From contig CM057147.1 in NCBI GenBank assembly GCA_029964075.1, positions 19,799,513 to 19,863,512 on the forward strand: 64,000 nt of DNA, written 5' to 3'. Below are positions 4,425-62,076 of the stretch, in pieces (the stretch's first letter is position 1; each line of letters opens with the position of its first letter). The notes under the pieces are model-generated. The model did not search any database. It was not told where the DNA came from and saw only the letters and a program-made list of their open reading frames with translations. The position numbers and the translations under genes are program-made. The stretch comes from Patiria pectinifera (Eukaryota; Echinodermata; Asteroidea; Valvatida; Asterinidae).

Positions 4425-4662
4425 GAAGTCCTAAATTAACAACGCAATCTCCAGGTGCGTCTTGCACGACATCACGCAGTACGTGCGAACCAAGCGCCAA
4501 TCTCCATAGAAGGAGTTGTGTACATCTTACTCGCAAGCTAGACACTCCATTATTTAGCTATAGAGGGGTGTTGAAAAAACATGAAGTGAACTTGTTGAAC
4601 AAAATCGGGGTTTTTTGACCGAAAAGTTTTGAATTCTTTTACCGAAAAAGTATTTATGAATG

Positions 4663-4783
4663 GGAATAAATATGTGCTTGGTCGGTATTAATCACTCTGT
4701 TTAAAAACTGGTTGGAGTCTGGGTGCTGATAATTACCCTCACCTTCGGCTCGGATTAAAACCGACCAAGCACACATTTATTCC
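4663..4783. repeat. inverted repeat, ~24-bp arms
   Basis: The left arm, ggaataaatatgtgcttggt then cggt, pairs with the right arm, accgaccaagcacacattta then ttcc, with one mismatch. The loop is about 70 bp. It is a MITE-like palindrome of unknown family. Confidence 0.65.
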
Positions 4784-5574
4784 TTTTAAACTGCATCAAC
4801 AGTAATAAGCTGATCTATGTTTGCACATGTGGTTAAACTACCATGGTTCACTCAGAAAATGTTGTAAATTCCTGATGCTTGAATTCCTAAACTCATTGGA
4901 CTTATTTATAGCTTTAACCATAACAGAACTCAACCCATCAAACCCCAACGACATGTTTTGTTGGAATCTGTCAGGATGGGTACAGTACCCCTAAACTGAC
5001 AGTCTTTTACATTGGGTTGGCACACCTCCAGAATCAAAGTCAGAAATATGTGTGTGCGCAGTTTCCCACATGGTGTTGGAATTTGCCAGGATGGGTATGG
5101 TTCCTAGTAAATCATGCTAGGGATTGAGGGTCAAAAGACTCTCTGAAATAAATTTCGCAATCAAACATTTGACTCAAGTATCCATTCTTTTGAGAATGAT
5201 TAGACACACTTTTTTGGCTTAAAATGTTTGAAAATGCACTTATTTTTAGCCTTCACAGTTTCAGTGCTGCTTCAAGACAACTGAGTATGCCGTTGCTGTA
5301 ATGTAATGGTCCCCTTGAATCTGCATGGAAAAAAAAAACCATGAAATAAATGTAATCAGTTGAAATTTATGTACCTTGTGAGCAGGTATGGTAGTTGTAC
5401 AAGGATTTGGGTGGATTATATCAAATGCCAACACTTCGTGCCTTTTAAAATAATTAATTGTGAACCTAATTTTATCACTGTACGTTTGTGTCGTAAATTG
5501 AATCTTTTGCAACCCTGCAGGTTTTAGTCTCATTTTATCAACCTTAACGACTTCACTCCACCATTTTTACCCAG
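4784..5574. other. intronic or intergenic DNA upstream of the first visible exon
   Basis: Two related words (gtcaggatgggtac near 4970 and gccaggatgggtatgg near 5085) form a weak direct repeat. No further exon of the downstream gene could be defended here. The branch and acceptor region ends ccatttttacccag at 5574. Confidence 0.4.
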
Positions 5575-8051
5575 GATGTCAACCAGATCTTCACCACATA
5601 CACTGACCCAGCACCCAACAGTGCCAGCCTGGTAACACACCTCATAGTCCCCCAGTCACAGCAGCCATCGGAGACGGACGCATCATCCCCGAGCTATGAG
5701 CAGACTGACGGGCAGCAGCCGCAGATCGAGTACCAGTACGCCTGCATCAATGATCCAAGCCAGTGCTCTGCCAATGGGGAAGGTAAGATGGTAAGAATAT
5801 TAACCCTGACCCTCCAAGAATCCTGCAGCATCTATCCAGAGGTTAGGGAGGATAATGCCACCAGCAGTGAAGGATAATTTATAGAAGAAGCTGACTAAAA
5901 GCCAAGAGGGAGGCATTTGATGCAAGGAAGAATTCTTCCCCCATCCCCCCCCCCACCCCCACAATTGATATATCATGAATCCATACAGAAGAAGGGAATG
6001 GGTAGACAACAGTATGTTTAAAACAGTTGTCTTTACTCTTGCGCTTGTTTAGTCATGAAATGAATAAAACAACCAAAATTTCAGCATTTTTTTGAGGGGG
6101 TTGGAGCGGGTGAGGGCCAGTGGATTTTACAAATTGGAATTTAAAGGTGCAAAGAGTGTGCCGTTTGTATTTTTAAGTTGATGGATTTGGGAGTATTCAA
6201 GAAGATTCTAAGCAAATTGAAAAAAAAAGAGTCAGGGTGGCAATACATTTTGAAAGCGGACTTCAACAGTTAATTAAATATTGGAATTTGTCCTTCACCT
6301 TGCCCACCTAATGTTAGGAATAAGGTTTGAAAAATGAGTGATTGCTTACACCCAGTTACATGAAATTATGTGTTCTTGACACGCACGGCATCTCTTGGGA
6401 CTTCCTTGCCTGTATCCTGTTTTTAAGGCTACAGATTATCTGTCCCATTGAAGCGCAACATACATGTCAACATTTCTACTCCATCAACTCCTGTCTTTCC
6501 CCTCTGTGTAGCCTTCACCCGGAGTGGCCTGAGGGACTTTCTATAATACAGGAATTAGTATCCAGGATAATTACTCAACCTTTCCCTCGACCATTCTGTC
6601 CTCTCTTAAACAGTTGTCCTTATTGAGATACCAGACGAAGGAAGCAAAGGGGATTTGGAGGACGAGACTTGCTACACAGAGCACAACTTGTCGCTGCTGC
6701 TGCAGGAGAAGGAACGTCTGGAGAAGACTCTTGAGGAGGAGCGGACCACGTGGGCCCAGACAGAGCACAGGATGAAAGGCACTATAGAAAGGCTTCATAC
6801 AAAGGTGAGTGGGCATTCCATCTGGTCTTGGTCTAAGAATGAGTTTGGATCTTGTTCCCTGAATGCAACAGGTATCAAAGGCGTCAATCGCTTCTCAAAA
6901 GTGGGAGGGGAGGACAAACCTTGATCAGAACTAATGCAGGCACACTAATGCGACTGCATTCTTTCAGTGGTCAGTTTCTGTCAGGATGCCAGCTGTGGGC
7001 GATCATGGTGTGCTTTGTTGTTGTCATTGTTCTACATTTTCTACACGTTCTACGTTGTTCTATGCGCTGACGCTGCATATCATGTATGCAGACAAACCGT
7101 TCCACACATTTTGTACACAAGCTCAGATGTGTCGTTTATCCTTGTGTAGAAGATCCGTGGTTGCACTCATACTCTAGTTGCACTAAATAACTGGGCAACA
7201 ACATATGTGCCTTCTTAAGCATTCATGCTCCAACTGCACACATCATCAAGTGCATCAATGTCAGACTTTGGTGTGTGCTGTCATGGTTGTGATTGGTTAC
7301 ACATCACGGGGCAGAGACTAATGGATTGGTCTATTAAAATTCCATCTGTAAACAAATAATTTCTCTGCCCATCCTTCTTGCCCTCCAGGTTGAGTATTTG
7401 TCCAACACAAACACGTCACTCAAGCAGCAGCTGTCCATGATTCACACGTCCAGTTTGAAACGTTACTGCAACACATGTCTGAGGAGCACACCCAGCTGCT
7501 GCACCACCATCTAGCACAGCTGCGGCTGTACGCTCAGGCCTGCGCATTATCCAAACCAGCCCCCGAGGAATCTGCAGCCGAATCTGCAGTCTTGGTACCA
7601 GACCTGGCCGACCAATCACAGGACATTTCACACATGGCCATGATGTCTTCCTCTGAGGACAGTCTTGGAGGATTCAGAGCCGCTTGGGAACATCGTGGAT
7701 AACCCCGGAGATACCATGAGACACGATGTCTTGCCTTTGGATAAGGACATTCAGTTGTCACCAAATGACATTCCATACCAACTGACAAGCGAGGGACTAT
7801 CACCAAGACATGCCACCTCTGTGTCGGGTCACATTTATCAATCAGGTACAACTCATCCACGTCACAACACAGGCTGTGATGTCACGCAACAGGATTTTCA
7901 CAAGAACAAAAGTTTGAAATTGGTTCTTTCCAACAGCACGCCAAAAATATTCTGCCCCGACGGCTTCGACAAAAGAATGTTTGAAGATGACATGTCAAAT
8001 GAGGGACCACTATTAAAACGTGGGAGAACTAACAGCCTGAAAGCCACTTAA
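5575..8051 (+). CDS. coiled-coil protein, last three exons (partial gene)
   Basis: Exon 1 is 5575-5782 (acceptor tttttacccag, donor GTAAGA, phase 1). Exon 2 is 6614-6804 (acceptor cttaaacag, donor GTGAGT). The final exon begins at 7389 (acceptor ttgccctccag). Exon 1 encodes a polar, Gln/Ser-rich segment (DVNQIFTTYTDPAPNSAS, EYQYACINDPSQCS). Exon 2 is acidic, then a coiled coil (LLLQEKERLEKTLEEERTTW) that runs into exon 3 (VEYLSNTNTSLKQQL). Exon 3 also encodes MSEEHTQLLHHHLAQLRLY and a basic end, GPLLKRGRTNSLKAT, stopping at 8051 just before an AATAAA signal. The frame shifts twice within exon 3 (about 7430-7475 and 7640-7700), so either an alternative acceptor at 7453/7454 and a stop at 7702 are used, or there are indels. 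Earlier exons lie outside or were not found. The family is not recognised; the composition suggests a nuclear regulatory protein, but that is a guess. Confidence 0.65.
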
Positions 8052-8054
8052 CTA

Positions 8055-8060
8055 AATAAA
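8055..8060 (+). terminator. polyadenylation signal AATAAA
   Basis: AATAAA lies four bases after the TAA at 8049-8051 of the coiled-coil gene. The spacing is unusually tight, but no better hexamer is nearer. Confidence 0.45.
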
Positions 8061-8064
8061 ACCG

Positions 8065-8140
8065 GACATATTTTGTAAACAGTGTACACTCAGTGTTGTC
8101 TGAGGGCTTAGTTGGGGGGGGGGGGACTTGAACTAATGAG
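8065..8140. mobile_element. fragment of the tRNA-core inverted-repeat element
   Basis: The sequence catattttgtaaacagtgta then cactcagtgttgtctgaggg matches the left arm of the element at 56274-56582. It lies at the same side of the PhnD-like exon copy as that element does at 56 kb. This indicates that the element was already in the intron before the exon was duplicated. Confidence 0.6.
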
Positions 8141-8167
8141 TTAAGTCTTCATGGAAGTTTGTCTTAC

Positions 8168-8318
8168 CTGAATGAAAAATTTTACCAAAGAAACTGGCCT
8201 TGGTCTCTCCTATCTTTTCGAGTTCTCGATGGGCAATCCCGAATCCGCTCAGTGAATGGGCGTCGTTGTAGGCCCAAACAGATCCACGTAGGTCCTCAAA
8301 CACTTTATATATCTATTA
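8168..8318 (-). pseudogene. duplicated PhnD-like exon, frameshifted
   Basis: This is a close copy of the exon at 56752-56900, including its donor (GTAAGA), its acceptor (TTTCAG) and intron flanks on both sides. The encoded core matches bacterial phosphonate-binding proteins: SVWAYNDAHSLSGFGI, then AHRELEKIGETKASFFGK. The exon is 151 bp against 149 bp in the other copy because of an extra TA within tatata near 8307-8312, which shifts the frame just after the acceptor. No neighbouring exon of the same gene was found. It is probably a dead segmental duplicate, though it could belong to a paralogue with exons outside the window. Confidence 0.7.
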
Positions 8319-8544
8319 CTGAAACATAAACGATGCAATTATTTTTAACATTGAAACATTCGGTCGTATGTATAAAAACTAGCATTTGCTTTTTTTTTTA
8401 CTATGTATTTTTAAGCATAACTTTTATTTGCGTGAATAAAAATGAGAGCAAATTCTTTCACTATTTGCTTCAAGCTAAAAGTATTTGCTTTTTTACTTTT
8501 TGGCTTTTGCTAGACTAGAAGTGTGGACTGGTTTCAAACTTGAA
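8319..8544. other. flank of duplicated exon, then AT-rich spacer
   Basis: About the first 45 bp resemble the intron beside the exon at 56.9 kb (taacattgaaacatt shared). The remainder is AT-rich, without features, up to the start of the satellite. Confidence 0.5.
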
Positions 8545-11500
8545 AAAAAATATAAAGTTTCAATTGACCTCAAAATTAATAAAATTTTAAAATCTAAAAC
8601 TCCAACTGTGGGAATTGAACCAGCAACCTTCAGAAGTTCAGATTTAGGGTCATCAGTCCGTATTACTTTATTAAGCACAACTTCACACTATTTTGTGGTT
8701 ACAAAATTAATTAACTGTAAAGTTTCAATTGACCTAAAAAGTAATAACATTTTGAAATCTAAAAATCCCAGCATGGGAATGAACCTGCAACCTTCAGATT
8801 TAGAGTCAGCAGTCTGAACCACTGCACTAAGCATAATTTCACACTTTTTGTGGTTACGAAATTGACTATAAAGTTTCAATTTACCCAAAAAGAAATAATA
8901 TTTTTAAAATGTTAAATTCCCACCCTGGATTTGAACCCACAACCTTCAGATTGAGAGTCGGCAGTCCGTACCACTGCACTAAGCATAATTTCATGCTTTT
9001 TGTGGTTACGAAATTATTTATAAAGTTTCAATTTACCCCAAAAGAAATAAAATTTTAAAATATAAAATTCCCACCCTGGATTTGAACCTGCAACCTCCAG
9101 ATTTAGAGTCAGCAGTCCGTACCATTGGACTAAGCATAATTTCACACTTTTGAGTGGTTACGGAATTGACTATAAAGTATCAATTTAACCAATAAGAAAT
9201 AAAATTTTAATATCTAAAATTCCCACCCTGGATCTGAACCCGCAACCTTCAGATTTAGAGTCAGCAGTCTGAACCACTGCACTAAGCATGATTTCATGCT
9301 TTTTGTGGTTACGAAATTAACTATAAAGTTTCAATTTACCCCAAAAGAAATAAAATTTTAAAATATAAAATTCCCACCCTGGATTTGAACCCACAACCTC
9401 CAGATTTAGAGTCAGCAGTCCATACCATTGGACTAAACATCATTTCACACTTTTTAGTGATTACAAAATTAACTATAAGGTTTCGATTTACCAAAAAAGA
9501 AATAAAATTTAAAAATGTAAAATTCCCACCCTGGATTTGAACCCGCAACCTCCAGATTTAGCGTCAGCAGTCCGTATCATTGGACTAAGCATAATTTCAC
9601 ACTTTTTAGTGGTTACGAAATTGACAATAAAGTTTCATTTTACTCAAAAAGAAATAATATTTTTAAAATGTTAAATTCCCACCTTGGATTTGAACCCACA
9701 ACCTTCAGATTGAGAGGGACCAGTCCGTACCATTGGACTAAGCATAATTTCACACTTTTTAGTGGTTACGAAATTAACTATAAAGTTTCAATTTACCAGA
9801 AAAGAATAAAATTTAACAATTTCAAATTCCCACCCTGGATTTGAACCTGCAACCTTCATACTTAGAGTCAGCAGTCTTAACCACTGCACTAAGCATAATT
9901 TCACACTTTTTAGTGGTTACAAAATTGACTATAAAGTTTCAATTTACCCAAAAAGAAATAAAATTTTAAAATCTAAAATTCCCATCCTGGATCTGAACCC
10001 GCAACCTTCAGATTTAGAGTCAGCAGTCTGAACCACTGCACTAAGCATGATTTCGTGCTTTTTGTGGTTACGAAATTAACTATAAAGTTTCAATTTACCC
10101 CAAAAGAAATAAAATTTTAAAATATAAAATTCCCACCCTGGATTTGAACCCACAACCTTCAGATTTAGAGTCAGCAGTCTAAACCACTGCACTAAGCATA
10201 ATTTCACACTTTTTGTGGTTACAAAATTAACTATAAAGTTTCAGTTTACCCAAAAAGAAATTAAATTTTAAAATGTAAAACTCCCACCCTGGATTTGAAC
10301 CCACAACCTACAGATTTAGAGTCAGCAGTCTGAACCACTGCACTAAGCATAATTTCATGCTTTTTGTGGTTACGAAATTAACTATAAAGTTTCAATTCAC
10401 CCCAAAAGAAACAAAATTTTAATATCTAAAATTCCCACCCTGGATCTGAACCCGCAACCTTCAGATTTAGAGTCAGCAGTCTGAACCACTGCACTAAGCA
10501 TGATTTCATGCTTTTTGTGGTTACGAAATTAACTATAAAGTTTCAATTTACCCCAAAAGAAATAAAATTTTAAAATATAAAATTTCCACCCTGGATTTGA
10601 ACCCACAACCTTCAGATTTAGAGTCAGCAGTCTAAACCACTGCACTAAGCATAATTTCACACTTTTTTGTGGTTACGAAATTAACTATAAAGTTTCAATT
10701 TACCCAAAAAGAAATAAAATTTTAAAATATAAAATTCCCACCCTGGATTTGAACCCACAACCTCCAGATTTAGAGTCAGCAGTCCGTACCATTGGACTAA
10801 GCATAATTTCACACTTTTTAGTGGTTACGAAATTGACTATAAAGTTTCAATTTACCCAAAAAGAAATAAAATTTTAAAATATAAAATTCCCACCCTGGAT
10901 TTGAACCCACAACCTTCAGATTTAGAGTCAGCAGTCTAAACCACTGCACTAAGCATAATTTCACACTTTTTTGTGGTTACGAAATTAACTATAAAGTTTC
11001 AATTTACCCCAAAAGAAATAAAATTTTAAAATATAAAATTCCCACCCTGGATTTGAACCCGCAACCTCCAGATTTAGAGTCAGCAGTCTAAACCACTGCA
11101 CTACGCATGATTTCATGCTTTTTAGTGGTTACGAAATTAACTATAAAGTTTCAATTTACCCAAAAAGAAATACAATTTTAAAATGTAAAATTCCCACCCT
11201 GGATTTGAACCTGCAACCTCCAGATTTAGAGTCAGCAGTCCGTACCATTGAACTAAGCATAATTTCACACTTTTGAGTGGTTACGAAATTGACTATAAAG
11301 TTTCAATTTACCCAAAAAGAAATAAAATTTTAATATCTAAAATTCCCACCCTGGATTTGAACCTGCAACCTTCAGATTTAGAGTCTGCAGTCTGAACCAC
11401 TGCACTAAGCATAATTTCATGCTTTTTAGTGGTTACAAAATTAACTATAAAGTTTCAATTTACCCAAACAGAAACACAATTTTAAAATCTAATATTCCCA

Positions 11501-14500
11501 CCCCGGATTTGAACCCCGCAACCTCCAGATTTAGAGTCAGCAGTCTGAACCACTGCACTAAGCATAATTTCATGCTTTTTGTGGTTACGAAATTGACTAT
11601 AAAGTTTCAATTTACCCCAAAAGAAATAATATTTTTAAAATGTTCAATTCCCACCCTGGATTTGAACCCACAACCTTCAGATTGAGAGTCAGCAGTCCGT
11701 ACCACTGCACTAAGCATAATTTCATGCTTTTTAGTGGTTACAAAATTAACTATAAAGTTTCAATTTACCCCAAAAGAAATAAAATTTTAAAATATAAAAT
11801 ACCCACCCTGGATTTGAACCCACAACCTTCAGATTTAGAGTCAGCAGTCCGTACCACTGGACTAAGCATAATTTCACACTTTTGAGTGGTTACGAAATTA
11901 ACTATAAAGTTTCAATTTACCCAAAAAGAAATAAAATTTTAAAATGTAAAATTCCCACCCTGGATTTGAACCCGCAACCTCCAGATTTAGAGTCAGCAGT
12001 CTGAACCACTGCACTAAGCATAATTTCACACTTTTTAGTGGTTACGAAATTGACTATAAAGTTTCAATTTACCCAAAAAGAAATAAAATTTTAAAATATA
12101 AAATTCCCACCCTGGATTTGAACCCGCAACCTTCAGATTTAGAGTCAGCAGTCTAAACCACTGCACTAAGCATAATTTCACACTTTTTAGTGGTTACGAA
12201 ATTAACTATAAAGTTTCAATTTACCCCAAAAGAAATAAAATTTTAAAATATAAAATTCCCACCCTGGATTTGAACCTGCAACCTTCAGATTTAGAGTCAG
12301 CAGTCTAAACCACTGCACTAAGCATAATTTCACACTTTTTGTGGTTACGAAATTAACTATAAAGTTTCAATTTACCCAAAAAGAAATAATATTTTTAAAA
12401 TGTTAAATTCCCACTCTGGATTTGAACCCACAACCTTCAGATTGAGAGTCAGCAGTCCGTACCATTGGACTAAGCATAATTTCACACTTTTTAGTGGTTA
12501 CGAAATTAACTATAAAGTTTCAATTTACCCCAAAAGAAATAAAATTTTAAAATGTAAAATTCCCACCCTGGATTTGAACCTGCAACCTTCAGATTTAGAG
12601 TCAGCAGTCTGAGCCACTGCACTAAGCAATATTTCACACTTTTTAGTGGTTACGAAATTAACTATAATGTTTCAATTTACCCAAAAAGAAATAAAATTTT
12701 AAAACGTAAAATTCCCACCCTGGATTTGAACCCGCAACCTCCAGATTTAGCGTCAGCAGTCCATACCATTGGACTAAGCATAATTTCACACTTTTTAGTG
12801 GTTACGAAATTGACTATAAAGTTTCAATTTACCCAAAAAGAAATAAAATTTTAATATCTAAAATTCCCACCCTGGATTTGAACCTGCAACCTTCAGATTG
12901 AGAGTCTGCAGTCTGAACCACTGCACTAAGCATAATTTCATGCTTTTTAGTGGTTACAAAATTAACTATAAAGTTTCAATTTACCCAAAAAGAAATAAAA
13001 TTTTAAAATGTAAAATTCCCATCCTGGATTTGAACCCGCAACCTCCAGATTTAGAGTCAGCAGTCTGAACCACTGCACTAAGCATAATTTCACACTTTTT
13101 GTGGTTACGAAATTGACTATAAAGTTTCAATTTACCCAAAAAGAAATAATATTTTTAAAATGTTAAATTCCCACCCTGGATTTGAACCCACAACCTTCAG
13201 ATTGAGAGTCAGCAGTCCGTACCACTGCACTAAGCATAATTTCATGCTTTTTAGTGGTTACAAAATTAACTATAAAGTTTCAATTTACCCCAAAAGAAAT
13301 AAAATTTTAAAATATAAAATTCCCACCCTGGATTTGAACCCACAACCTTCAGATTTAGAGTCAGCAGTCTAAACCACTGCACTAAGCATAATTTCACACT
13401 TTTTAGTGGTTACGAAATTAACTATAAAGTTTCAATTTACCCAAAAAGAAATAAAATTTTAAAATGTAAAATTCCCACCCTGGATTTGAACCCGCAACCT
13501 TCAGATTTAGAGTCAGCAGTCTGAACCACTGCACTAAGCATAATTTCACACTTTTTAGTGGTTACAAAATTGACTATAAAATTTCAATTGACCCAAAAAG
13601 AAATCAATTTTAAAATTTAAAGTTCCCTTCCCCCTGGATTTGAACCCGCAACCTTTAGAATCAGCAGTCTGAACCACTGGACTAAGCACAATTTTCCACT
13701 ATTTAATGGGTACGAAATTAACTATAAAGTTTCAATTTACCCAAAAAGAAATACAATTTTAAAATTTAAACTTCCCACCCTGGATTTGAACCTGCAACCT
13801 TCAGATTTAGAGTCAGCAGTCTGAACCACTGCACTAAGCAATATTTCACACTTTTTAGTGGTTACGAAATTAACTATAATGTTTCAATTTACCCAAAAAG
13901 AAATAAAATTTTAAAATGTAAAATTCCCACCCTGGATTTGAACCCGCAACCTCCAGATTTAGAGTCAGCAGTCCGTACCATTGGACTAAGCATAATTTCA
14001 CACTTTTGAGTGGTTACGAAATTGACTATAAAGTTTCAATTTACCCCAAAAGAAATAAAATTTTTAAAATATAAAATTCCCACCCTGGATTTGAACCCAC
14101 AACCTTCAGATTTAGAGTCAGCAGTCCGTACCACTGCACTAAGCATAATTTCATGCTATTTAGCGGGTACGAAATTAACTAAAAAGCTTTAATTTACCCC
14201 AAAAGAAACAAAATTTTAAAATCTAAAATTCCCACCCTGGATTTGAACCCAGGACCTCCAGATTTAGAGTCAGCAGTCCATACCATTGCACTTAGCATGA
14301 TTACACACATTTTAGTGGTTACTAAATTAACTATAAAGTTTCAATTTACCCAAAAAGAAATAAAATTTTAAAATATAAAATTTCAACCCTGGATTTGAAC
14401 CTGCAACCTTCAGATTTAGAGTCAGCAGTCTGAGCCACTGCACTAAGCAATATTTCACACTTTTTAGTGGTTACGAAATTAACCATAAAGTTTCAATTGA

Positions 14501-17500
14501 CCCAAAAAGAAATAAAATTTTAAAATCTAAAATTACCACCCTGGATTTGAACCCGCAACCTTCAGATTGAGAGTCAGCATTCCGTACCATTTGACTAAGC
14601 ATAATTCCACACTTTTAGAGGTTACAAAATTAACTATAAAGTTTCAATTGACCTTAAAATTAATAAAATTTTAATATCTAAAATTCCCATCCTGGATCTG
14701 AACCCGCAACCTTCAGATTGAGAGTCAGCAGTCTGAAGCACTGCACTAAGCATGATTTCATGCTTTTGTGGTTACGAAATGAACTATAAAGTTTCAATTT
14801 TCCCCAAAACAATTGAAATTTTAAAATCTCAAATTCCCAGCCTGGATTTGAACCCGTAACCTTCAGATTTAGAGTCAGCAGTCCAAACCATTGGACTAAG
14901 CATAATTTCACACTACTTAGTGATGACAAAATTAATTATTAAGTTTCAATTTACCCAAAAAGAAATAAAATTTTAAAAGCTAAAATTCCCACACTGGATT
15001 TGAACCCGCAACCTTCAGATTGATAGTCAGCAGTATGAACCACTGCACTAAGCATAATTTCATGATTTTTGTGGTTAAGAAATTAACTATAAAGTTTCAA
15101 TTTACACCCCCCAAAAATACAATTATATAATGTAAAATTCCCACCCTGGATTTGAACCCACAACCTTCAGATTTAGAGTCAGCAGTCTGAACCACTGCAC
15201 TAAGCATGATTTCATGCTTTTTGTGGTTACGAAATTAACTATAAAGTTTCAATTTACCCCAAAAGAAATAAAATTTTAAAATATAAAATTCCCACCCTGG
15301 ATTTGAACCCACAACCTTCAGATTTAGAGTCAGCAGTCTGAACCACTGCACTAAGCATGATTTCACACTTTTTAGTGGTTACGAAATCAACTATAAAGTT
15401 TCAATTTATCCAAAAAGAAATAAAATTTTAAAATGTAAAATTCCCACCCTGGATTTGAACCCACAACCTTCAGATTTAGAGTCAGCAGTCCGTACCATTG
15501 GACTAAGCATAATTTCACACTTTTGAGTGGTTACGAAATTAACTATAAAGTTTCAATTTACCCAAAAAGAAATAAAATTTTAAAATGTAAAATTCCCACC
15601 CTGGATTTGAACCCGCAACCTCCAGTTTTAGAGTCAGCAGTCTGAACCACTGCACTAAGCACCATTTCACACTTTTTAGTGGTTACGAAATTAACTATAA
15701 AGTTTCAATTTACCCAAAAAGAAATAAAAGTTTTAAATGTAAAATTCCCACCCTGGATTTGAACCTGCAACCTTCAAATTTAGAGTCAGCAGTCCGTACC
15801 ATTGGACTAAGCATAACTTCACACTTTTTTAGTGGTTATGAAATTAACTATAAAGTTTCAATTTACCCAAAAAGAAATAAAAGTTTTAAATGTAAAATTC
15901 CCACTGAGGGATTGAACCTGCAACCTTCAAATTTAGAGTCAGCAGGACGTACCATTGGACTAAGCATAACTTCACACTTTTTAACTGTGACGAAATTAAC
16001 TATAAAGTTTCAATTTACACAAAAAGAAATAAAATTTAAAAATCTAAAGCCCCCCCCCCTGGATTTGAACCCACAACCTTCAGATTTAGAGTCAGCAGTA
16101 TGAACCACTGGACTAAGCACAATTTTACACTTTTAAATGGGTACGAAATTAACTATAAAGTTTATATTTACCCAAAAAGAAACAAAATTTTAAAATCTAA
16201 AATTCCCACCCTGGATTTGAACCCGCAACTTTCAGATTTAGAGTCAGCAGTCTGAACCACTGCACTAAGCATGATTTCATGCTTTTTGTGGTTACGAAAT
16301 TAACTATAAAGTTTCAATTTACCCCAAAAGAAATAAAATTTTAAAATATAAAATTCCCACCCTGGATTTGAACCCGCAACCTCCAGATTTAGAGTCAGCA
16401 GTCCCTACCATTGACTAAGCATATTTCACACGTTTTAGTGGTTACGAAATTGACTATAAAGTTTCAATTTACCCAAAAAGAAATAAAATTTTAAAATGTA
16501 AAATTCCCACCCTGGATTTGAACCCGCAACCTTCAGATTTAGAGTCAGCAGTCCGTACCATTGGACTAAGCATAATTTCACACTTTTTAGTGGTTACAAA
16601 ATTAACTATAAAGTTTCAATTTACCCCAAAAGAAATAAAATTTTAAAATTTCAAATTCCCACCCTGGATTTGAACCCACAACCTTCAGATTTAGAGTCAG
16701 CAGTCTGTACCATTGGACTAAGCATAATTTCATGCTTTTTAGTGGTTACGAAATTGACTATGAAGTTTCAATTTACCCAAACGAAATAAAATTTTAAAAT
16801 ATAAAATTCCCACCCTGGATTTGAACCCACAACCTTCAGATTTGGAGTCAGCAGTCTGAGCCACTGCACTAAGCATAATTTCACACTTTTTAGTGGTTAC
16901 GAAATTAACGATAATTTTTCAATTTACCCAAAAAGAAATCAAATTTTAAAATATAAAATTCCCACCCAGGATTTGAACCCGCAACCTCCAGATTTAGCAT
17001 CAGCAGTCCGTACCATTGGACTAAGCATAATTTCACACTTTTTAGTGGTTACGAAATTGACTATTAAGTTTCAATTTACCCAAAAGGAAATCAAATTTTT
17101 AAAATGTTAAATTCCCACCTTGGATTTGAACCCGCAACCTCCAAACTTAGCGTCAGCAGTCCGTACCATTGGACTAAGCATAATTTCACACTTTTTAGTG
17201 GTTACGAAATTAACTATAAAGTTTCAATTTACCCCAAAAGAAATAAAATTTTAATATCTAAAATTCCCACCCTGGATTTGAACCCGCAACCTTCAGATTT
17301 AGAGTCAGCAGTCTGAACCACTGCACTAAGCATGATTTCATGCTTTTTGTGGTTCCGAAATTAACTATAAAGTTTCAATTTACCCCAAAAGAAATCAAAT
17401 TTTAAAATGTAAAATTCCCACCCTGGATTTAAACCCGCAACCTCCAGATTTAGAGTCAGCAGTCCATACCATTGGACTAAGCATCATTTCACACTTTTTA

Positions 17501-20500
17501 GTGATTAAAAAATTAACTATAAAGTTTCAGTTTACCCAAAAGAAATAAAATTTTAAAATGGTTAATTCCCACCCTAGATTTGAACCCACAACCTACAGAT
17601 TTAGAGCCAGCATTCTGAACCACTGTACTAAGCATAATTTCATGCTTTTTGGTGTTAGGAAGTTAACTATAAAGTTTCAATTTACCCCAAAAGAAATAAA
17701 ATTTTAAAATGTAAAATTCCCACCCTGGATTTAAACCCGCAACCTCCAGATTTAGAGTCAGCAGTCTGAACCAGTACACTAAGCATGATTTCATGCTTTT
17801 TGTGGTTACGAAATTAACTATAAAGTTTCAATTTACCCCAAAACAAATAAAATTTTAAAATATAAAATTCCCACCCTGAATTTGAAACCGCAACCTTCTG
17901 ATTGAGAGTCAGCAGTCTAAACCACTGCACTAAGCCTAATTTCACACTTTTTGTGGTTACGAAATTAACTATAATGTTTCAGTTTACCCCAAAAGAAATC
18001 AAATTTTAAAAATGTAAAATTCCCACCCTGGATTTGAACCCACAACCTCCAGATTTAGAGTGAGCAGTCCATACCATTGGACTAAGCATCATTTCACACT
18101 TTTTAGTGATTACGAAATTAACTATAAAGTTTCAATTTACCCCAAAAGAAATACAATGTTAAAATGTAAATTTCCCACCCTGGATTTGAACCCACAACCT
18201 CCAGATTTAGAGTCAGCAGTCCGTACCATTGACCAAGCATAATTTCACACTTTTAGTGGTTACGAAATTAACTATAAAGTTTCAATTTACCCAAAAAGAA
18301 ATAAAAATTTTAAAATGTTTAATTCCCACCCTGGATTTGAACCCACAACCTACAGATTTGGAGTCAGCAGTCTGAACCACTGCACTAAGCATAATTTCAT
18401 GCTTTTTGTGGTGACGAAATTAACTATAAAGTTTCAATTTACCCCAAAAGAAATAAAATTTTAAAATGTAAAATTCCCACCCTGGATTTGAACCCGCAAC
18501 CTTCAGATTTAGAGGCAGCAGTCTGAACCACTACACTAAGCATGATTTCTTGCTTTTAAGTGGTTACGAAATTTACTATAAAGTTTCAATTTACCCAAAA
18601 AGAAATCAAATTTTAAAATGTAAAATTCCCACCCTGGATTTGAACCCACAACCTTCAGATTTAGAGTCAGCACTCTAAACCACTGCACTAAGCATAATTT
18701 CACACTTTTTAGTGGTTACGAAATTAACGATAATTTTTCAATTTACCCAAAAAGAAATCAAATTTTAAAATGTGAAATTCCCACCCTGGATTTGAACCCC
18801 CAACCTCCAGATTTAGCATCAGCAGTCTGTACCATTGGACTAAGCATAATTTCACACTTTTTAGTGGTTACGAAATTGACTATGAAGTTTCAATTCACCC
18901 AAACGAAATAAAATTTTAAAATATAAAATGCCCACCCTGGATTTGAACCCGCAACCTCCAAACTTAGCGTCAGCAGTCCGTACCATTGGACTAAGCATAA
19001 TTTCACACTTTTTAGTGGTTACGAAATTAACTTTAAAGTTTCAATTTACCACAAAATAAATAAAATTTTAAAATTTAAAATTCCCACCCTGGATTTGAAC
19101 CTGCAACCTTCAGATTTAGAGTCAGCAGTCTGAGCCACTGCACTAAGCAATATTTCACACTTTTTAGTGGTTACGAAATTAACTATAATGTTTCAATTTA
19201 CCCAAAGAGAAATAAAATTTTAAAATGTAAAATTCCCACCTTGGATTTGAACCCACAACCTTCAGATTGAGAGTGAGCAGTCCGTACCATTGGACTAAGC
19301 ATAATTTCACACTTTTTAGTGGTTACGAAATTAACTTTAAAGTTTCAATTTACCCCAAAAGAAATAAAATTTTAAAATTTAAAATTCCCGCCCTGGATTT
19401 GAACCTGCAACCTTCAGATTTAGAGTCAGCAGTCTGAGCCACTGCACTAAGCAATATTTCACACTTTTTAGTGGTTACGAAATTAACTATAGTGTTTCAA
19501 TATACCCAAAAAGAAATAAAATTTAAAAATGTAAAATTCCCACCCTGGATTTGAACCTGCAACCTCCAGATTTAGCGTCAGCAGTCCGTACCATTGCACT
19601 AAGCATAATTTCACACTTTTTAGTGATTACGAAATTGACTATAAAGTTTCAATTCACCCCAAAAGAAATAAAATTTTAATATCTAAAATTCCCACCCTGG
19701 ATTTGAACCCGCAACCTTCAGATTGAGAGTCAGCAGTCTGAACCACTGCACTAAGCATGATTTCATGCTTTTTGTGGTTCCGAAATTAACTATAAAGTTT
19801 CAATTTACCCCAAACGAAATAAAATTTTAAAATATAAAATTCCCACCCTGGATTTGAACCCGCAACCTCCAAACTTAGCGTCAGCAGTCCGTACCATTGG
19901 ACTAAGCATATTTCACACTTTTTAGTGGTTACGAAATTGACTATAAAGTTTCAATTTACCCAAAAAGAAATAATATTTTTAAAATGTTAAATTCCCACCT
20001 TGGATTTGAACCCACAACCTTCAGATTGAGAGTCAGTAGTCCGTAACATTGGACTAAGCATAATTTCACACTATATAGTGGTTACAAAATTAACTATAAA
20101 GTTTCAATTTACCCCAAAAGAAATAAAATTTTAAAATATAAAATTCCCACCCTGGATTTGAACCCACAACCTTCAAATTTAGAGTCAGCACTCTAAACCA
20201 CTGCACTAAGCATAATTTCACACTTTTTAGTGGTTACGAAATTAACGATAATTTTTCAATTTACCCAAAAAGAAATCAAATTTTAAAATGTGAAATTCCC
20301 ACCGTGGATTTGAACCCCCAACCTCCAGATTTAGCGTCAGCAGTCTGTACCATTGGACTAAGCATAATTTCACACTTTTTAGTGGTTACGAAATTGATTA
20401 TGAAGTTTCAATTTACCCAAACGAAATAAAATTTTAAAATATAAAATTCCCACCCTGGATTTGAACCCGCAACCTCCAAACTTAGCATCAGCAGTCCGTA

Positions 20501-23500
20501 CCATTGGACTAAGCATAATTTCACACTTTTTAGTGGTTACGAAATTAACTTTAAAGTTTCAATTTACCACAAAATAAATAAAATTTTAAAATTTAAAATT
20601 CCCACCCTGGATTTGAACCTGCAACCTTCAGATTTAGAGTCAGCAGTCTGAGCCACTGCACTAAGCAATATTTCACACTTTTTAGTGGTTACGAAATTAA
20701 CTATAATGTTTCAATTTACCCAAAGAGAAATAAAATTTTAAAATGTAAAATTCCCACCCTGGATTTGAACCTGCAACCTCCAGATTTAGCGTCAGCAGTC
20801 CATACCATTGGACTTAGCATAATTTCACACTTTTTAGTGGTTACGAAATTGACTATAAAGTTTCAGTTTACCCCAAAAGAAATCAAATTTTAAAATGTAA
20901 AATTCCCACCCTGGATTTGAACCCCCAACCTCCAGATTTTGCGTCAGCAGTCTGTACCATTGGACTAAGCATAATTTCACACTTTTTAGTGGTTACGAAA
21001 TTGACTATTAAGTTTCAATTTACCCAAACGAAATAAAATTTTAAAATATAAAATTACCACCCTGGATTTGAACCCGCAACCTCCAAACTTAGCGTCAGCA
21101 GTCCATACCATTGGACTTAGCATAATTTCACACTTTTTAGTGGTTACGAAATTAACTTTAAAGTTTCAATTTACCACAAAATAAATAAAATTTTAAAATG
21201 TAAAATTCCCACCCTGGATTTGAACCTGCAACCTTCAGATTTAGTGTCAGCAGTCTGAGCCACTGCACTAAGCAATATTTCACACTTTTTAGTGGTTACG
21301 AAATTAACTATAATGTTTCAATTTACCCAAAGAGAAATAAAATTTTAAAATGTAAAATTCCCACCCTGGATTTGAACCTGCACCCTCCAGATTTAGCGTC
21401 AGCAGTCCGTACCATTTGACTAAGCATAACTTTACACTTTTTAGTGGTTACGAAATTGACTATAAAGTTTCAATTCACCCCAAAAGAAATAAAATTTTAA
21501 TATCTAAAATTCCCACCCTGGATTTGAACCCGCAACCTTCAGATTTAGAGTCAGCAGTCTGAACCACTGCACTAAGCATGATTTCATGCTTTTTGTGGTT
21601 CCGAAATTAACTATAAAGTTTCAATTTACCCCAAAAGAAATCAAATTTTAAAATGTAAAATTCCCACCCTGGATTTAAACCCGCAACCTCCAGATTTAGA
21701 GTCAGCAGTCCATACCATTGGACTGAGCATCATTTCACACTTTTTAGTGATTACAAAATTAACTATAAAGTTTCAGTTTACCCAAAAAGAAATAAAATTT
21801 TTAAAATGGTTAATTCCCACCCTAGATTTGAACCCACAACCTACAGATTTAGAGTCAGCAGTCTGAACCACTTTACTAAGCATAATTTCATGCTTTTTGT
21901 GGTGACGAAGTTAACTATAAAGTTTCAATTTACCCCAAAACAAATAAAATTTTAAAATGTAAAATTCCCACCCTGGATTTCAACCCACAACCTTCAGATT
22001 TAGAGTCAGCAGTCTGAACCAGTACACTAAGCATGATTTCATGATTTTTGTGGTTACGAAATTAACTATAAAGTTTCAATTTACCCCAAAACAAATAAAA
22101 TTTTAAAATATAAAATTCCCACCCTGGATTTGAACCTGCAACCTTCAGATTTAGAGTCAGCAGTCTGAGCCACTGCACTAAGCAATATTTCACACTTTTT
22201 AGTGGTTACGAAATTAACTATAATGTTTCAATTTACCCAAAAAGAAATAAAATTTAAAAATGTAAAATTCCCACCCTGGATTTGAACCCACAACCTCCAG
22301 ATTTAGAGTCAGCAGTCCGTACCATTGGACTAAGCATAATTTCACACTTTTAAGTGGTTACGAAATTAACTATAAAGTTTCAATTTACCCAAAAAGAAAT
22401 AAAAATTTTAAAATGTTTAATTCCCACCCTGGATTTGAACCCACAACCTACAGATTTGGAGTCAGCAGTCTGAACCACTGCACTAAGCATAATTTCATGC
22501 TTTTTGTGGTGACGAAATTAACTATAAAGTTTCAATTTACCCCAAAAGAAATAAAATTTTAAAATGTAAAATTCCCACCCTGGATTTGAACCCGCAACCT
22601 TCAGATTTAGAGGCAGCAGTCTGAACCACTACACTAAGCATGATTTCTTGCTTTTAAGTGGTTATGAAATTAACTATAAAGTTTCAATTTACCCAAAAAG
22701 AAATCAAATTTTAAAATGTAAAATTCCCACCCTGGATTTGAACCCGCAACCTTCAGATTTAGAGACAGCAGTCCGTACCATTGCACTAGGCATAATTTCA
22801 CACTTTTTAGTGGTTACAAACTTAACTATCAAGTTTCAATTTACCCCAAGAAAATAAAATTTTAAAATCCAAAATTCCCCCCCCCCCCCGGACTTGAAGC
22901 CACAACTTTAAGATTTAGAGTCAGCAGTCTGAACCACTGCACTAAGCATAATTTCATGCTTTTAGGTGGTTACCAAATTAACTTTAAAGTTTCAATTTAC
23001 CCAAAAAGAAATAAAATTTTAAAATCTACAATTCCCACCCTGGATTTGAACCCGCAACCTTCAGCTTTAGAGTCAGCAGTCTGAACCACTGCACTAAGCA
23101 TGATTTCATGCTTTTTGTGGTTCCGAAATTAACTATAAAGTTTCAATTTACCCCAAACGAAATAAAATTTTAAAATATAAAATTCCCACCCTGGATTTGA
23201 ACCCGCAACCTCCAAACTTAGCGTCAGCAGTCCGTACCATTGGACTAAGCATATTTCACACTTTTTAGTGGTTACGAAATTGACTATAAAGTTTCAATTT
23301 ACCCAAAAAGAAATAATATTTTTAAAATGTTTAATTCCCATCTTGGATTTGAACCCACAACCTTCGGATTGAGAGTCAGCAGTCCGTACCATTGGACTAA
23401 GCATAATTTCACACTATATGGTTGTTACAAAATTAACTATAAAGTTTCAATTTACCCCAAAAGAAATAAAATTTTAAAATATAAAATTCCCACCCTGGAT

Positions 23501-26290
23501 TTGAACCCACAACCTTCAGATTTAGAGTCAGCAGTCTGTACCATTGGACTAAGCATAATTTCATGCTTTTTAGTGGTTACGAAATTGACTATGAAGTTTC
23601 AATTTACCCAAACGAAATAAAATTTTAAAATATAAAATTCCCACCCTGGATTTGAACCCACAACCTTCAGATTTGGAGTCAGCAGTCTGAGCCACTGCAC
23701 TAAGCATAATTTCACACTTTTTAGTGGTTACGAAATTAACGATAATTTTTCAATTTACCCAAAAAGAAATCAAATTTTAAAATGTGAAATTCCCACCCTG
23801 GATTTGAACCCCCAACCTCCAGATTTTGCGTCAGCAGTCTGTACCATTGGACTAAGCATAATTTCACACTATTTAGTGGTTACGAAATTGACTATGAAGT
23901 TTCAATTTACCCAAACGAAATAAAATTTTAAAATATAAAATTACCACCCTGGATTTGAACCCGCAACCTCCAAACTTAGCGGCAGCAGTCCATACCATTG
24001 AACTAAGCATAATTTCACACTTTTTAGTGGTTACGAAATTGACTATAAAGTTTCAATTCACCCCAAAAGAAATAAAATTTTAATATCTAAAATTCCCACC
24101 CTGGATTTGAACCCGCAACCTTCAGATTTAGAGTCAGCAGTCTGAACCACTGCACTAAGCATGATTTCATGCTTTTTGTGGTTCCGAAATTAACTATAAA
24201 GTTTCAATTTACCCCAAAAGAAATCAAATTTTAAAATGTAAAATTCCCACCCTGGATTTAAACCCGCAACCTCCAGATTTAGAGTCAGCAGTCCATACCA
24301 TTGGACTAAGCATCATTTCACACTTTTTAGTGATTACAAAATTAACTATAAAGTTTCAGTTTACCCAAAAAGAAATAAAATTTTTAAAATGGTTAATTCC
24401 CACCCTAGATTTGAACCCACAACCTACAGATTTAGAGTCAGCAGTCTGAACCACTTTACTAAGCATAATTTCATGCTTTTTGTGGTGACGAAGTTAACTA
24501 TAAAGTTTCAATTTACCCCAAAACAAATACAATTTTAAAATGTAAAATTCCCACCCTGGATTGCAACCCACAACCTTCAGATTTAGAGTCAGCAGTCTGA
24601 ACCAGTACACTAAGCATGATTTCATGCTTTTTGTGGTTACGAAATTAACTATAAAGTTTCAATTTACCCCAAAACAAATAAAATTTTAAAATATAAAATT
24701 CCCACCCTGAATTTGAAACCGCAACCTTCTGATTGAGAGTCAGCAGTCTAAACCACTGCACTAAGCCTAATTTCACACTTTTTGTGGTTACGAAATTAAC
24801 TATAATGTTTCAGTTTACCCCAAAAGAAATCAAATTTTAAAAATGTAAAATTCCCACCCTGGATTTGAACCCACAACCTCCAGATTTAGAGTGAGCAGTC
24901 CATACCATTGGACTAAGCATCATTTCACACTTTTTAGTGATTACGAAATTAACTATAAAGTTTCAATTTACCCCAAAAGAAATACAATGTTAAAATGTAA
25001 ATTTCCCACCCTGGATTTGAACCCACAACCTCCAGATTTAGAGTCAGCAGTCCGTACCATTGGACCAAGCATAATTGCACACTTTTAAGTGGTTACGAAA
25101 TTAACTATAAAGTTTCAATTTACCCAAAAAGAAATAAAAATTTTAAAATGTTTAATTCCCACCCTGGATTTGAACCCACAACCTACAGATTTGGAGTCAG
25201 CAGTCTGAACCACTGCACTAAGCATAATTTCATGCTTTTTGTGGTGACGAAATTAACTATAAAGTTTCAATTTACCCCAAAAGAAATAAAATTTTAAAAT
25301 GTAAAATTCCCACCCTGGATTTGAACCCGCAACCTTCAGATTTAGAGGCAGCAGTCTGAACCACTACACTAAGCATGATTTCTTGCTTTTAAGTGGTTAC
25401 GAAATTTACTATAAAGTTTCAATTTACCCAAAAAGAAATCAAATTTTAAAATGTAAAATTCCCACCCTGGATTTGAACCCGCAACCTTCAGATTTAGAGA
25501 CAGCAGTCCGTACCATTGCACTAAGCATAATTTCACACTTTTTAGTGGTTACAAACTTAACTATCAAGTTTCAATTTACCCCAAAACGAAATAAAATTTT
25601 AAATCTAGGATTCTCCCCCCCCCCCGGGACTTGAACCCACAACCTTCTGATTTAGAGTCAGCAGTCTGAACGACTGCACTAAGCATAATTTCATGCTTTT
25701 AAGTGGTTACGAAATTAACTATAAAGTTTCAATTTACCCCAAAAGAAATAAAATTTTAAAATCTACAATTCCCACCCTGGATTTGAACCCACAATCTTCA
25801 GATTTAAAGCCAGCAGTCTGAACCACTGCACTAAGCATAATTTCACACTTTTTTGTGGTTACGAAATTAACTATAAAGTTTCAATTTACCCAAAAGAAAT
25901 AAAATTTTAAAATGTAAAATTCCAACCCTGGATTTGTACCCGCAACCCCAAGATTTAGAGTCGGCAGTCCGTACCATTGGACTAAGCATAATTTCACATT
26001 TTTTAATGGTTACGAAATTTACTATCAAGTTTCAATTTACCCAAAAAGAAATAAAATATTAATATCTAAAATTCCCACCCTGGATTTCAACCCACAACCT
26101 TCAGATTTAGAGTCAGCAGTCCGTACCATTGGACTAAGCATAATTTTACACTTTTAGTGGTTACAAAATTAACTATAAAGTTTCAATTTACCCAAAAAGA
26201 AATAAAATTTAAAATCGAACATGCAACCTTCAGATTTAAAGTCACCAGTCCGAACATAGGAAAAAGTACAATTTCACACTATTTAGTGAT
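8545..26290 (-). repeat. tRNA-derived satellite, ~152-bp unit, ~115 copies
   Basis: The array is unbroken for 17.7 kb. Successive ccctgg landmarks fall at 10741, 10893, 11045 and 11197, a period of 152 bp. Each unit has an AT-rich part (ttaactataaagtttcaatt, acccaaaaagaaataaaatt) and a tRNA-like part on the minus strand. That part reads TGCTTAGTGCAGTGG (A-box-like), then ACTCTAAATCTGAAGG (anticodon-arm-like), then GGTTGCGGGTTCAAATCC (B box). The flanks do not form a 7-bp acceptor stem and the T-stem has mismatches, so these are not tRNA genes, although both pol III promoter boxes are kept in most units. Edge units (8.6-8.9 kb and 26.2 kb) are more divergent, as expected for a satellite. The short open frames inside are by-products of the repeat. 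Confidence 0.92.
16740..25600. repeat. higher-order repeats inside the satellite
   Basis: Diagnostic variants recur at fixed unit multiples. The variant ggatttaaacccgcaacctc occurs near 17424, 21670 and 24253. The variant catgatttcttgcttttaag occurs at 18541, 22639 and 25375. A unit at 18060-18240 reappears with almost no change at 24891 (offset 6831 bp, about 45 units), and variants near 16750-16920 reappear near 23580-23750 at the same offset. A separate 10-unit (1520 bp) duplication links 11640-11850 and 13160-13372. Blocks of units were therefore copied together, and recently. Confidence 0.8.
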
Positions 26291-36697: not shown

Positions 36698-37092
36698 TAA
36701 TTACGGGCACTGTATAATCAGTGCTTTTCAACAGAAATTAAAATCAATAGCAAAGCTATCTTGAAAGGCCAATAGTATCATTTGCAATTACAGAAATGTA
36801 AATAAAATAGCTGACTTTTCAGCTCAAGTGTAACATCTTTGAAAGATCATGAACAAAATGTGTGCCTTTATTTAACAGGTATTTCATAAGGCAAATTTTT
36901 GAGTACTTGCAAATGATCCTATCAAGCCATGTTACTTCCAACCTACAGGTAGGCCGATGAGGCCTTTACTTTCAAAAGATATGCCAGGTCTGTACAGAGG
37001 ATTTTCAAATGAGTGTCATGTATCATTTCTATCGGGGAGTGTTCATATCAAGTACTAAAGACTATTCATAAGATGAAATTTGCATCAATATT

Positions 37093-37313
37093 AGGTTTTG
37101 CCCTTCATCGACGTATAAACACTGTATACTCAGTGTGTTCAACCCGAGTGAAAGTCAGCAAAAGCACTCGGGTGGGAATCGAACCCACAACCTTCTGCTT
37201 TGTTGAGCAGACGTCTTACCACTCGACCACCGAGCACGAGAGATTGTTTAACTTTCACTCAGGGGTAACACACCGAGTAGACAGTGGTCATATGTCGGTG
37301 AAGGGCAAAACCT
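37093..37313. mobile_element. inverted-repeat element with tRNA-like core
   Basis: The outer ends aggttttgcccttcatcgac and gtcggtgaagggcaaaacct are near-perfect inverted repeats. Second inner blocks (gagtgaaag / ctttcactca) also pair. Homology of the arms extends outward by about 15 bp (tttgca..aat..). The core at 37164-37236 is tRNA-like on the minus strand. The arrangement is a palindromic transposon carrying a tRNA-derived segment. Relatives lie at 54812-55163, 56274-56582 and 8065-8140. Confidence 0.75.
37164..37236 (-). repeat. near-complete tRNA-like cloverleaf (SINE-type)
   Basis: On the minus strand the 5' TGCTCGG pairs with the 3' CCGAGTG (two G-U pairs). The T arm GTGGG-TTCGATT-CCCAC is perfect. 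The A box reads TGGTCGAGTGG and the B box GGTTCGATTCC. The anticodon arm (TCTGCTCAACAAAGCAGA) pairs but gives a loop of six or eight instead of seven. It is therefore probably a tRNA-derived sequence and not a decoding tRNA; the anticodon is not assigned. Confidence 0.65.
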
Positions 37314-37559
37314 AATTATTGCAAATTGTAAAGACTTAGGCCTACATTGTGCAAGCAAAATGTATGCAAGCCATAAATCACACAACAAAAATATAATTTA
37401 GCTGTTCAAATGACACTTTTCAAAGGTACATGTATTAGCACCCATCCCTGGTATAGGCCTGCATATTTTATTTTAACTTTTAGTCACTGTAGCACCCAAA
37501 ACTGCCCTGCCTATTACTCACTGTAGCACCAAAACTGCCCTAGCACTCTTAGGGTACGT

Positions 37560-42850: not shown

Positions 42851-44164
42851 CGTGACTTCATATGGGACGAGTAGTGTGACAGCTCTTTAAACACCCTCAA
42901 GACAGGATTGCAGGAGGCCCCTATCCTGGGTTACTCTCAACTGGAGGGCCAATACAAACTTGATCTGATGCCAGCAGGGATGGGATCAGTGAGTTCTCCC
43001 TTCGCAAGTTTAGGAAGGGAAAGAAAGAGTTATCGCCTATGCAAGTCTGGCATTGTTCGAACCAGGTGCCTACCTATGTTGCCCAATACCTACATGTTCC
43101 ACAACCCTAACCCTGGAACCATCTGCATGTAACCCTAAGCATCTAACCCTAAGCATCTAACCCTAAGCATCTAACCCTTAGAAGCATCTAACCCTAACCA
43201 TCTAAACCTAACCATCTAACCTTAACCATCTAAACCTAACCATCAAACCCTAACCATCTAAACCTAACCCTAACCCTAAGCCTAACCCTGAGGATTTTGG
43301 GGAACATATATAGGTATTGGGGAACAGGTATTGGGGAACATCAGGTAGACCCCGTCCAAACCCAAACCTAATTACTGTGTAACAAGGCGTAAATTGCTAG
43401 CTGTTGTCCAGCTTCCTCAAGCATCGAACGTAACACCTCTAGGGCCGAGTCACCTGTAGAAGAAGCCATGCAGGCGGGATCTATGCAGAGCCAATCAAAA
43501 CATGTAGAGCCAATCAAAACAAGCGAGGCCCAACTAAAGAACGACACCATAACCTGGGTTCTGAAGGAGAAAAATGCAGCAGTTGACCATACCAGAGTGC
43601 TGTATCAATAAATGGTCCAGCATCAAAAACTTACTGGTCCAACTGGGACCAGTTCGAGTGAGCTGGTGCCAGACATCGTTCTTGAGGAGACATTGAGCTG
43701 GACTGCTACCAAGATGACAAAAACATTCATCGTCACCAAGTTTCAGTCCGGCATAGCAACCAAGATCAGAAAAGGATGTGGATGTTTGACATCATCTTCA
43801 ATGCCAAGCTTAAGAAGAAATGAACTATTAGGTCCCAAATTATTCTTTCTGAGTACTGCTCCCATTAGAGACGTCCCATAATTTAAAAGTGTTATTAAAA
43901 ACTTGTTTGGAAAAGGTTCTTAAATGGTTCTTAAATTGTTATGAAAATGTTCTTTAAAGTATTCTCTTAATTAAAACAAATTAAACTGTAAGACATCTCC
44001 AGTACCACAGTTAACAAGAGGTAACTTTTCATGTTGGCAAAATTGTTATTTTTTATTAATGTAATTTGTGAGTTATTGTGTATAAGCTTTCAGGTCGGGA
44101 CACCCTGGCTTAATTAAAGAGGGCCCATTGTAATGCAAATCATACATGTACATTGCTACGAGTG
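42851..44164. other. non-coding stretch around the minisatellite
   Basis: Outside the minisatellite no protein family is recognised. A 89-residue open frame at 43612-43881 shows no domain. Confidence 0.35.
43126..43290. repeat. telomere-like minisatellite
   Basis: About ten copies of a 12-14-bp unit, taaccctaagcatc / taaacctaaccatc, end in a short cctaaccctaaccctaagcc run. It contains the CCCTAA telomere word but diverges too much to be a telomere end. Confidence 0.75.
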
Positions 44165-46590: not shown

Positions 46591-46599
46591 AGAATTATC

Positions 46600-61576: not shown

Positions 61577-62076
61577 TATAAACACAATGTGAACATGCAT
61601 CTCTCACACACTAAACTTAATTGTCTTCATTTTCTATCATCCTCTTTTTTCTGTCTTTTCTTCTTGTACGGTAGCCCTCACATTGAGTGGCATTTATGCC
61701 TTGTGAAGGGACGACTTGCATAAAAAAACAATTACATGTACACAATATGCATGTTTAATCTGGAGCAAATAATTAAAACTGAAACAAATTTAATTCGCAG
61801 ATTTCATGTCAGTGCAAGTAGTGAAACTGACTTACATGCATCTGCTTTGGTTACAGGAACTGATACCACAAGATAGTCACATGCAATAAAATCTGACACA
61901 AATGTTAAGGGAAAAAGAAGGAAAAGAACAAGAAACTTTCTGTTTCAATTACACTTTGCTCAAGGTCTTACAATCCCTGTGAGTATAAATCTGGAGTGAT
62001 CTGAAATAGAGAAGAACATTCTTTGCTGCATGTAAAATGTAGCTCACGGAGCTCAATGCTACATTGTGCATGAACT
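61577..62076 (+). promoter_or_regulatory. presumed 5' region of the GPCR gene
   Basis: AT-rich DNA without repeats ends in two short upstream reading frames, ATG at 62056-62073 and ATG at 62070-62084. The second overlaps the GPCR start codon at 62077. Such frames usually lower translation from the main start. No TATA or initiator could be defended. Confidence 0.4.

Follow-up and report, generated by a model that had tools for sequence, protein, structure and literature searches.

Satellite repeats with parts that resemble tRNA genes have been described in several animals. According to excerpts from PMC10702118, tRNA-related parts have been claimed for the tandem families PolIII/TAN, OAX, Rana/polIII and Hy/polIII. 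Another such repeat is found in the starfish Patiria pectinifera, in a stretch of 64,000 nucleotides (C19:19799513-19863512, hereafter the window) from an assembly of 613.5 Mb in 1020 contigs. It forms a long array of 152-bp units, most of which carry a tRNA-like segment with the A and B boxes of RNA polymerase III (Pol III) genes on the minus strand, and it sits inside a large block that has been copied within and between chromosomes. The reading favoured here, with a probability of roughly 0.55, is that of a tRNA-derived satellite that owes its spread to unequal exchange and to the duplication of blocks, and that has putative binding sites for TFIIIC. Origin and spread by this route, taken by themselves, are very probable.

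Tandem Repeats Finder (TRF) recovers the repeat as one array at 8551-26215, with a period of 152 bp, 116.3 head-to-tail copies and 88% matches. Wrap-around parsing resolves 116 full units, which share 83-99% identity with their consensus, and a degraded partial unit at 26173-26290. An original prediction, made from the letters of the window alone, had counted about 115 tandem units of ~152 bp; both this number and the coordinates given for the array, which were correct to a few bases, agree with the TRF and parsing results. Pairs of units are 0.885-0.900 identical at lags of 1-12 units and 0.890 identical when drawn at random, so that identity is flat with distance, and no higher-order repeat period was found at lags 1-12.

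The unit resembles a tRNA gene to a degree that varies between chromosomes. At a permissive threshold, the best unit in the window scores 25.1 bits over the whole Rfam tRNA model (12408-12479; E 0.2 over 4227 families), and no unit of the window array passes the Rfam cut-off of 29 bits. When 11 other loci were scanned, the cut-off was reached by six matches, all on contig C1, with a best score of 33.9 bits. The six C1 matches indicate that the likeness is genuine, and that units on C1 show it more strongly than those of the window. An origin of the unit from a tRNA is thereby supported at the level of sequence, and the tRNA-like segment of the original prediction stands, with the passing scores coming from C1 and none from the window. 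A genome search for real tRNA genes gave at least 60 matches, 63 of 76,052 candidates having been scored.

The fold of a tRNA is no longer present. In the alignment of the best window unit the acceptor stem is not formed, as had been anticipated. Neither a full anticodon stem nor a full T stem occurs in any of 442 full units, which were drawn from 20 array pieces (two C21 loci, L077 and L078, hold no full unit and were left out). These counts speak against a functional tRNA gene array and accord with the earlier opinion that decoding is unlikely. The share of units with a complete D stem is 86/100 on C1, 28/31 on C6, 4/7 on C13 and 95/296 on C19; on C168, a small contig, it is 2/8. Unit sites 100, 102, 107 and 110 define two main haplotypes, one that pairs the D stem and dominates on C1, C6 and C13, and another that breaks two D-stem pairs, retains the A box and is common on C19 and C168. 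The A box survives in the second haplotype because the changes fall on degenerate positions of the box. Since the pairing haplotype is the more widely distributed, it is probably the older of the two. Most differences between the array consensuses of C1, C6, C13 and C19 fall on about 5 of the 152 sites.

Pol III boxes are present in most units of the window. The A box (TRGYNNARNNG) is in register on the minus strand in 105 of the 116 units and the B box (GGTTCRANNCC), 33 nt away within the unit, in 97. Both are found together in 91 units, a run of four T residues (T4) follows the B box within 20 nt in 87, and 66 units combine all three. The claim that boxes are carried on the minus strand thus holds for most units and not for every one, as at least one box is missing in 25/116. 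The whole window contains 99 B boxes, 97 of them inside the array, against a mean of 0.80 and a maximum of 3 in 100 shuffles of the window. The A box is a weak signal alone: a plain search finds 104 on the minus strand of the array, yet 43 in the other 46 kb when both strands are counted. Neither box was found on the plus strand of the array. Among the 442 units, both boxes are retained in 70/100 on C1, 27/31 on C6, 3/7 on C13, 219/296 on C19 and 2/8 on C168.

Comparison across the 442 units gives modest support to the boxes being conserved beyond the remainder of the unit, their positions varying about half as much. With alleles at a pooled frequency of at least 8% treated as accepted, here and in the mask-retention analysis, rare variants amount to 2.3% in box columns and 4.2% in other columns (Mann-Whitney, indicative p 0.003), a deficit that holds separately in A/T columns (p 0.012) and G/C columns (p 0.006). 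Of all 11-column stretches in the unit, columns 65-75 vary least, and these overlap the B box at 60-70. When a joint mask of A and B boxes is slid round the unit, the true position ranks 3rd of 152 offsets by unit retention and 3rd by variant load. The absence of any box conservation above the spacer, which the original prediction would have taken as a sign of a neutral satellite, is therefore not what is seen, if by a modest margin.

Several observations weigh against a maintained, factor-binding array. The constraint on the boxes is modest, and since related units are treated as independent, all p-values given here are indicative only. Taken alone, the A mask ranks 12th (retention) or 17th (variant load) of the 152 offsets and the B mask 10th or 8th, and good conservation is seen elsewhere in the unit as well (TATAAAGTTTCAATT). 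Box retention is poor in some groups, namely C168 and C13, and the whole window array lies below the Rfam tRNA cut-off. Persistence of the A box in the haplotype that breaks the D stem could be luck, as the changed sites are degenerate in the box. The A box also appears to depend on the fold to a degree, being kept in 195/215 units with a full D stem vs 187/227 units without one.

These points lend weight to the closest competitor, a neutral satellite in which a tRNA-derived unit was multiplied by unequal crossing-over and segmental duplication and the boxes remain owing to youth and homogenisation. We regard this as a serious contender, if somewhat short of even odds. Amplification of one ancestral unit would itself yield the enrichment in boxes, and the flat identity of units with distance, the recency of the surrounding blocks (whose hairpin copies are 90-99% identical) and the equal frequency of singleton alleles (0.50 per box column, 0.48 elsewhere) are all in keeping with it. 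Two results speak against neutrality: box columns carry half the mid-frequency variants of the other columns (1.7% vs 3.4%, p 0.014), and they are polymorphic in fewer arrays (1.6 of 18 vs 3.2 of 18, p 0.008).

Under the favoured reading of a tRNA-derived satellite with binding sites, the arrays could still bind TFIIIC, the boxes having been kept although the RNA fold was lost. Judged from the boxes in the sequence, TFIIIC occupancy is a tentative proposal. Each unit would give rise to at most one short Pol III transcript of ~75-80 nt, with no role in decoding. In fission yeast, boundaries are built from clustered B boxes, and the window array, with 97 B boxes in 17.7 kb, shows clustering of this type. 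It is conceivable, though decidedly unlikely, that the arrays act as putative TFIIIC-bound boundary elements between duplicated GPCR-bearing blocks (GPCR, G-protein-coupled receptor), with ~100 B boxes per array like that of the window kept for DNA binding after the loss of the fold, and travelling together with insulated gene blocks and a hairpin-borne tRNA. An excerpt from PMC4502379 places TFIIIC binding sites among two known boundary elements or factors, each of which, mutated alone, has no more than mild effects.

The window array is one of many in the genome, which the original prediction could not see; a lack of further arrays, named there as one mark of a neutral satellite, is not what is observed. 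With up to 2 mismatches allowed, a unit pattern of 26 bases gives 1557 + 1127 = 2684 genome matches, and its reversed control gives 0. In the window this pattern is met 108 times, from which a genome total of ~2,900 units, or 0.07% of the genome, is extrapolated. Arrays are present on several chromosomes. An exact 50-base spacer pattern has 59 genome matches, confined to array zones: 28 on C1 (15.47-15.73 Mb), 9 on C6 (9.11-9.12 Mb), 7 on C13 (19.23-19.24 Mb), 14 on C19 (19.73-20.08 Mb) and 1 on C22 (13.71 Mb).

This distribution bears on the suggestion that the satellite was born from a tRNA-derived short interspersed nuclear element (SINE), with the AT-rich spacer as the former SINE body. 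The unit does have a tRNA head with boxes, and squamate satellites arose from SINEs according to excerpts from PMC10702118. Two pattern searches yielded no dispersed parent, although divergent copies could escape both: the spacer pattern is restricted to array zones, and a 27-base pattern that includes the base preceding the B-box region of a short C6 copy has 5 genome matches, 4 of them in array zones. Among the 100 matches listed of the 2684 for the unit pattern, all are on C1 and C6, and the sole one outside long arrays, C6:7460255, belongs to a short degraded group. In addition, the consensus has T4 directly after the tRNA part, as tRNA genes do, while a SINE body would require read-through. 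Birth from a SINE, as put forward in the original prediction, is unsupported by these searches and is considered unlikely.

The surroundings of the array are duplicated with it (Table 1). The left flank recurs on C19 with ~95-98% identity at five other places and 83-86% at one more, the duplication reaching as far as the edge of the array. On C6 it recurs with 82-89% identity at 8 places, 7 of which reach within ~20 bases of the array start. Six of these 7 are followed by a hairpin element after 22.5-30.9 kb, leaving room for arrays between, and a unit-like match lies at C6:9598204, 2.5 kb after one C6 left flank. At the other end, satellite units occur within ~1.5 kb of the right-end segment at 17 of its 29 places, and none there at the remaining 12. 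The distance from left flank to right-end segment at six C19 arrays is ~8, 10, 14, 18, 18 and 33 kb, the window being one of the two at 18 kb.

The hairpin element bears in its core a tRNA-like gene (37164-37236, minus strand, 48.8 bits) and may be a small DNA transposon carrying a tRNA. Near-full-length copies with at least 90% identity number 29, that of the window included, and most adjoin arrays. More divergent or partial copies are seen on C7, C8, C11, C14, C18 and elsewhere. The hairpin lies 5.0-11.3 kb downstream, in the same orientation, at 28 of the 29 right-end segments, the exception being C19:20005991; in six C1 blocks two right-end segments share a single hairpin, and 22 distinct hairpins are involved. 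Relatives of the GPCR gene are clustered in the C19 and C6 array zones, with others on C2 and C14; none of the 42 matches listed is on C1, C13, C21 or C22. Fourteen hairpins on C19 and C6 were examined, and 7 are followed by a GPCR gene, in six cases after 21.8-25.6 kb and in one after 35.4 kb. The spacing analysis used the 15 of 42 GPCR matches near arrays, 40 of 99 hairpin matches (forward, with the best scores), the first 30 of which were checked for a GPCR gene after the hairpin, and 14 left-flank ends, the eighth C6 place, which stops short of the array edge, being left out. The shared flanks, hairpin, spacing and orientation identify the array as a stable component of a large block that has been duplicated. 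Because unrelated parts have kept their spacing and orientation, segmental duplication is favoured over movement of an element.

The competing idea, that the array is an internal repeat of a mobile element ending past the right-end segment, draws on the right flank. The right-end segment is common to 7 contigs, and on C1, C13, C21 and C6 it sits in a longer repeated stretch, in which such an element would end; the stretch has a decayed gag-like zinc-knuckle frame that scores 17.2 bits against zf-CCHC, short of the 20.8 cut-off. Three left edges begin at an identical unit phase within different flanks, and the 12 right-end segments with no unit within 1.5 kb also fit. No shared left terminus is seen beyond C19 and C6, however, and the constant spacing to hairpin and GPCR gene argues for duplicated blocks, which makes a mobile element improbable. 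A centromeric or pericentromeric satellite is very doubtful: the arrays do lie in confined zones (15.5-19.1 of 29.8 Mb on C1, 7.5-9.9 of 24.2 Mb on C6, 19.7-21.8 of 34.6 Mb on C19) and blocks common to several chromosomes resemble pericentromeric duplications, but arrays or right-end segment are seen only on C1, C6, C13, C19, C21, C22 and C168, the ~8-33 kb between left flank and right-end segment on C19 is small for a centromere, and GPCR genes lie between arrays.

A history of the tRNA-derived satellite can then be proposed. A tRNA gene or tRNA pseudogene would have been joined to ~80 bp of AT-rich DNA and amplified in tandem. Exchange between arrays, to which the near-identical consensuses on different chromosomes point, would keep the units similar. 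As positions and orientation show, the array has travelled within the duplicated block, together with the right-end segment, the tRNA-bearing hairpin and, in some C19 and C6 copies, the GPCR gene.

Table 1. Features of the window, in window coordinates.
Feature	Position	Strand	Basis or remarks
Left flank	4425..8550	+	duplicated beside other arrays
152-bp satellite array, tRNA-like segment on minus strand	8551..26290	-	TRF, wrap-around parse, sub-cut-off Rfam tRNA matches
97 exact B boxes GGTTCRANNCC	8611..25789	-	at most 1 per unit; first 8611-8621, last 25779-25789
Right-end segment	26303..26480	+	29 places on C1, C6, C13, C19, C21, C22, C168
Hairpin element, tRNA-like gene inside	37090..37316	-	66-nt inverted arms, 85% complementary
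Rhodopsin-type GPCR gene	62074..63552	+	492-codon open frame, PF00001

Other repeats are present in the window. A minisatellite of ~21-23 bp (GGCACTT...CAAGAAT) at 46587-46933 is also found beside C1 arrays (L051, 4628-4951; L066, 1921-2190). An interstitial telomere-like repeat (CTAACC and variants) lies at 43103-43289, and a minisatellite of the GTACTCGTACTC type, both strands of which hold open frames, at 58369-58684. A dispersed repeat of ~390 bp at 1845-2230 has copies at 93-95% identity on C1, C3, C7, C8, C10, C14-C18, C19 and C21.

Among the titles and abstract openings listed from the literature, none was found that describes the 152-bp repeat. The original prediction had considered a long tandem array of this type uncommon, a claim to be tempered by the published PolIII/TAN, OAX and Rana/polIII repeats, on which the comparisons below follow the excerpts from PMC10702118. 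The closest likeness is to PolIII/TAN of the newt Cynops pyrrhogaster, which is also tandem, has tRNA-like sequence and is without an identified similar SINE (PMC10702118). PolIII/TAN differs in its ~360-nt unit and in having been transcribed in vitro (PMC10702118), whereas the present repeat has a 152-bp unit with a merely possible Pol III transcript; unlike PolIII/TAN, its arrays lie within a duplicated block that bears genes. The tandem arrangement, the tRNA-related part and a doubtful link to SINEs are shared by Xenopus OAX / satellite I and by Rana/polIII of green frogs, which have longer units (~250 nt in Rana/polIII) (PMC10702118). Rana/polIII makes up to 10% of certain frog genomes (PMC10702118), far above the share extrapolated here.

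Squamate SINE-derived satellites (sSats) are likewise tandem, with a mean unit similarity of 77-86%, and some units have a partial tRNA head including box B (PMC10702118). Unlike the present satellite, for which neither was found, they match a dispersed SINE that is already known and lie preferentially in subtelomeric regions (PMC10702118). The human tRNA gene tandem repeat at 1q23.3 is, in an excerpt from PMC4041453, also an array with tRNA promoters and a proposed boundary element. Its units are 7.3 kb long, carry five tRNA genes and bind CTCF (PMC4041453), in contrast to the present 152-bp units with pseudo-tRNAs.

With a tRNA-like segment that holds A and B boxes, in 91/116 window units and with six C1 matches at or above the Rfam cut-off, the starfish family joins the PolIII/TAN-OAX kind. 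Its interest lies in two features, the partly GPCR-bearing block and the loss of the fold with the boxes mostly kept. The arrays serve as markers of a large block that was copied between chromosomes and in part carries GPCR genes. They also offer a clean case of a tRNA-derived unit turned satellite, in which one chromosomal lineage shows a more advanced decay of the fold and most Pol III boxes have stayed, so that the upkeep of satellites as factor-binding arrays becomes directly testable.

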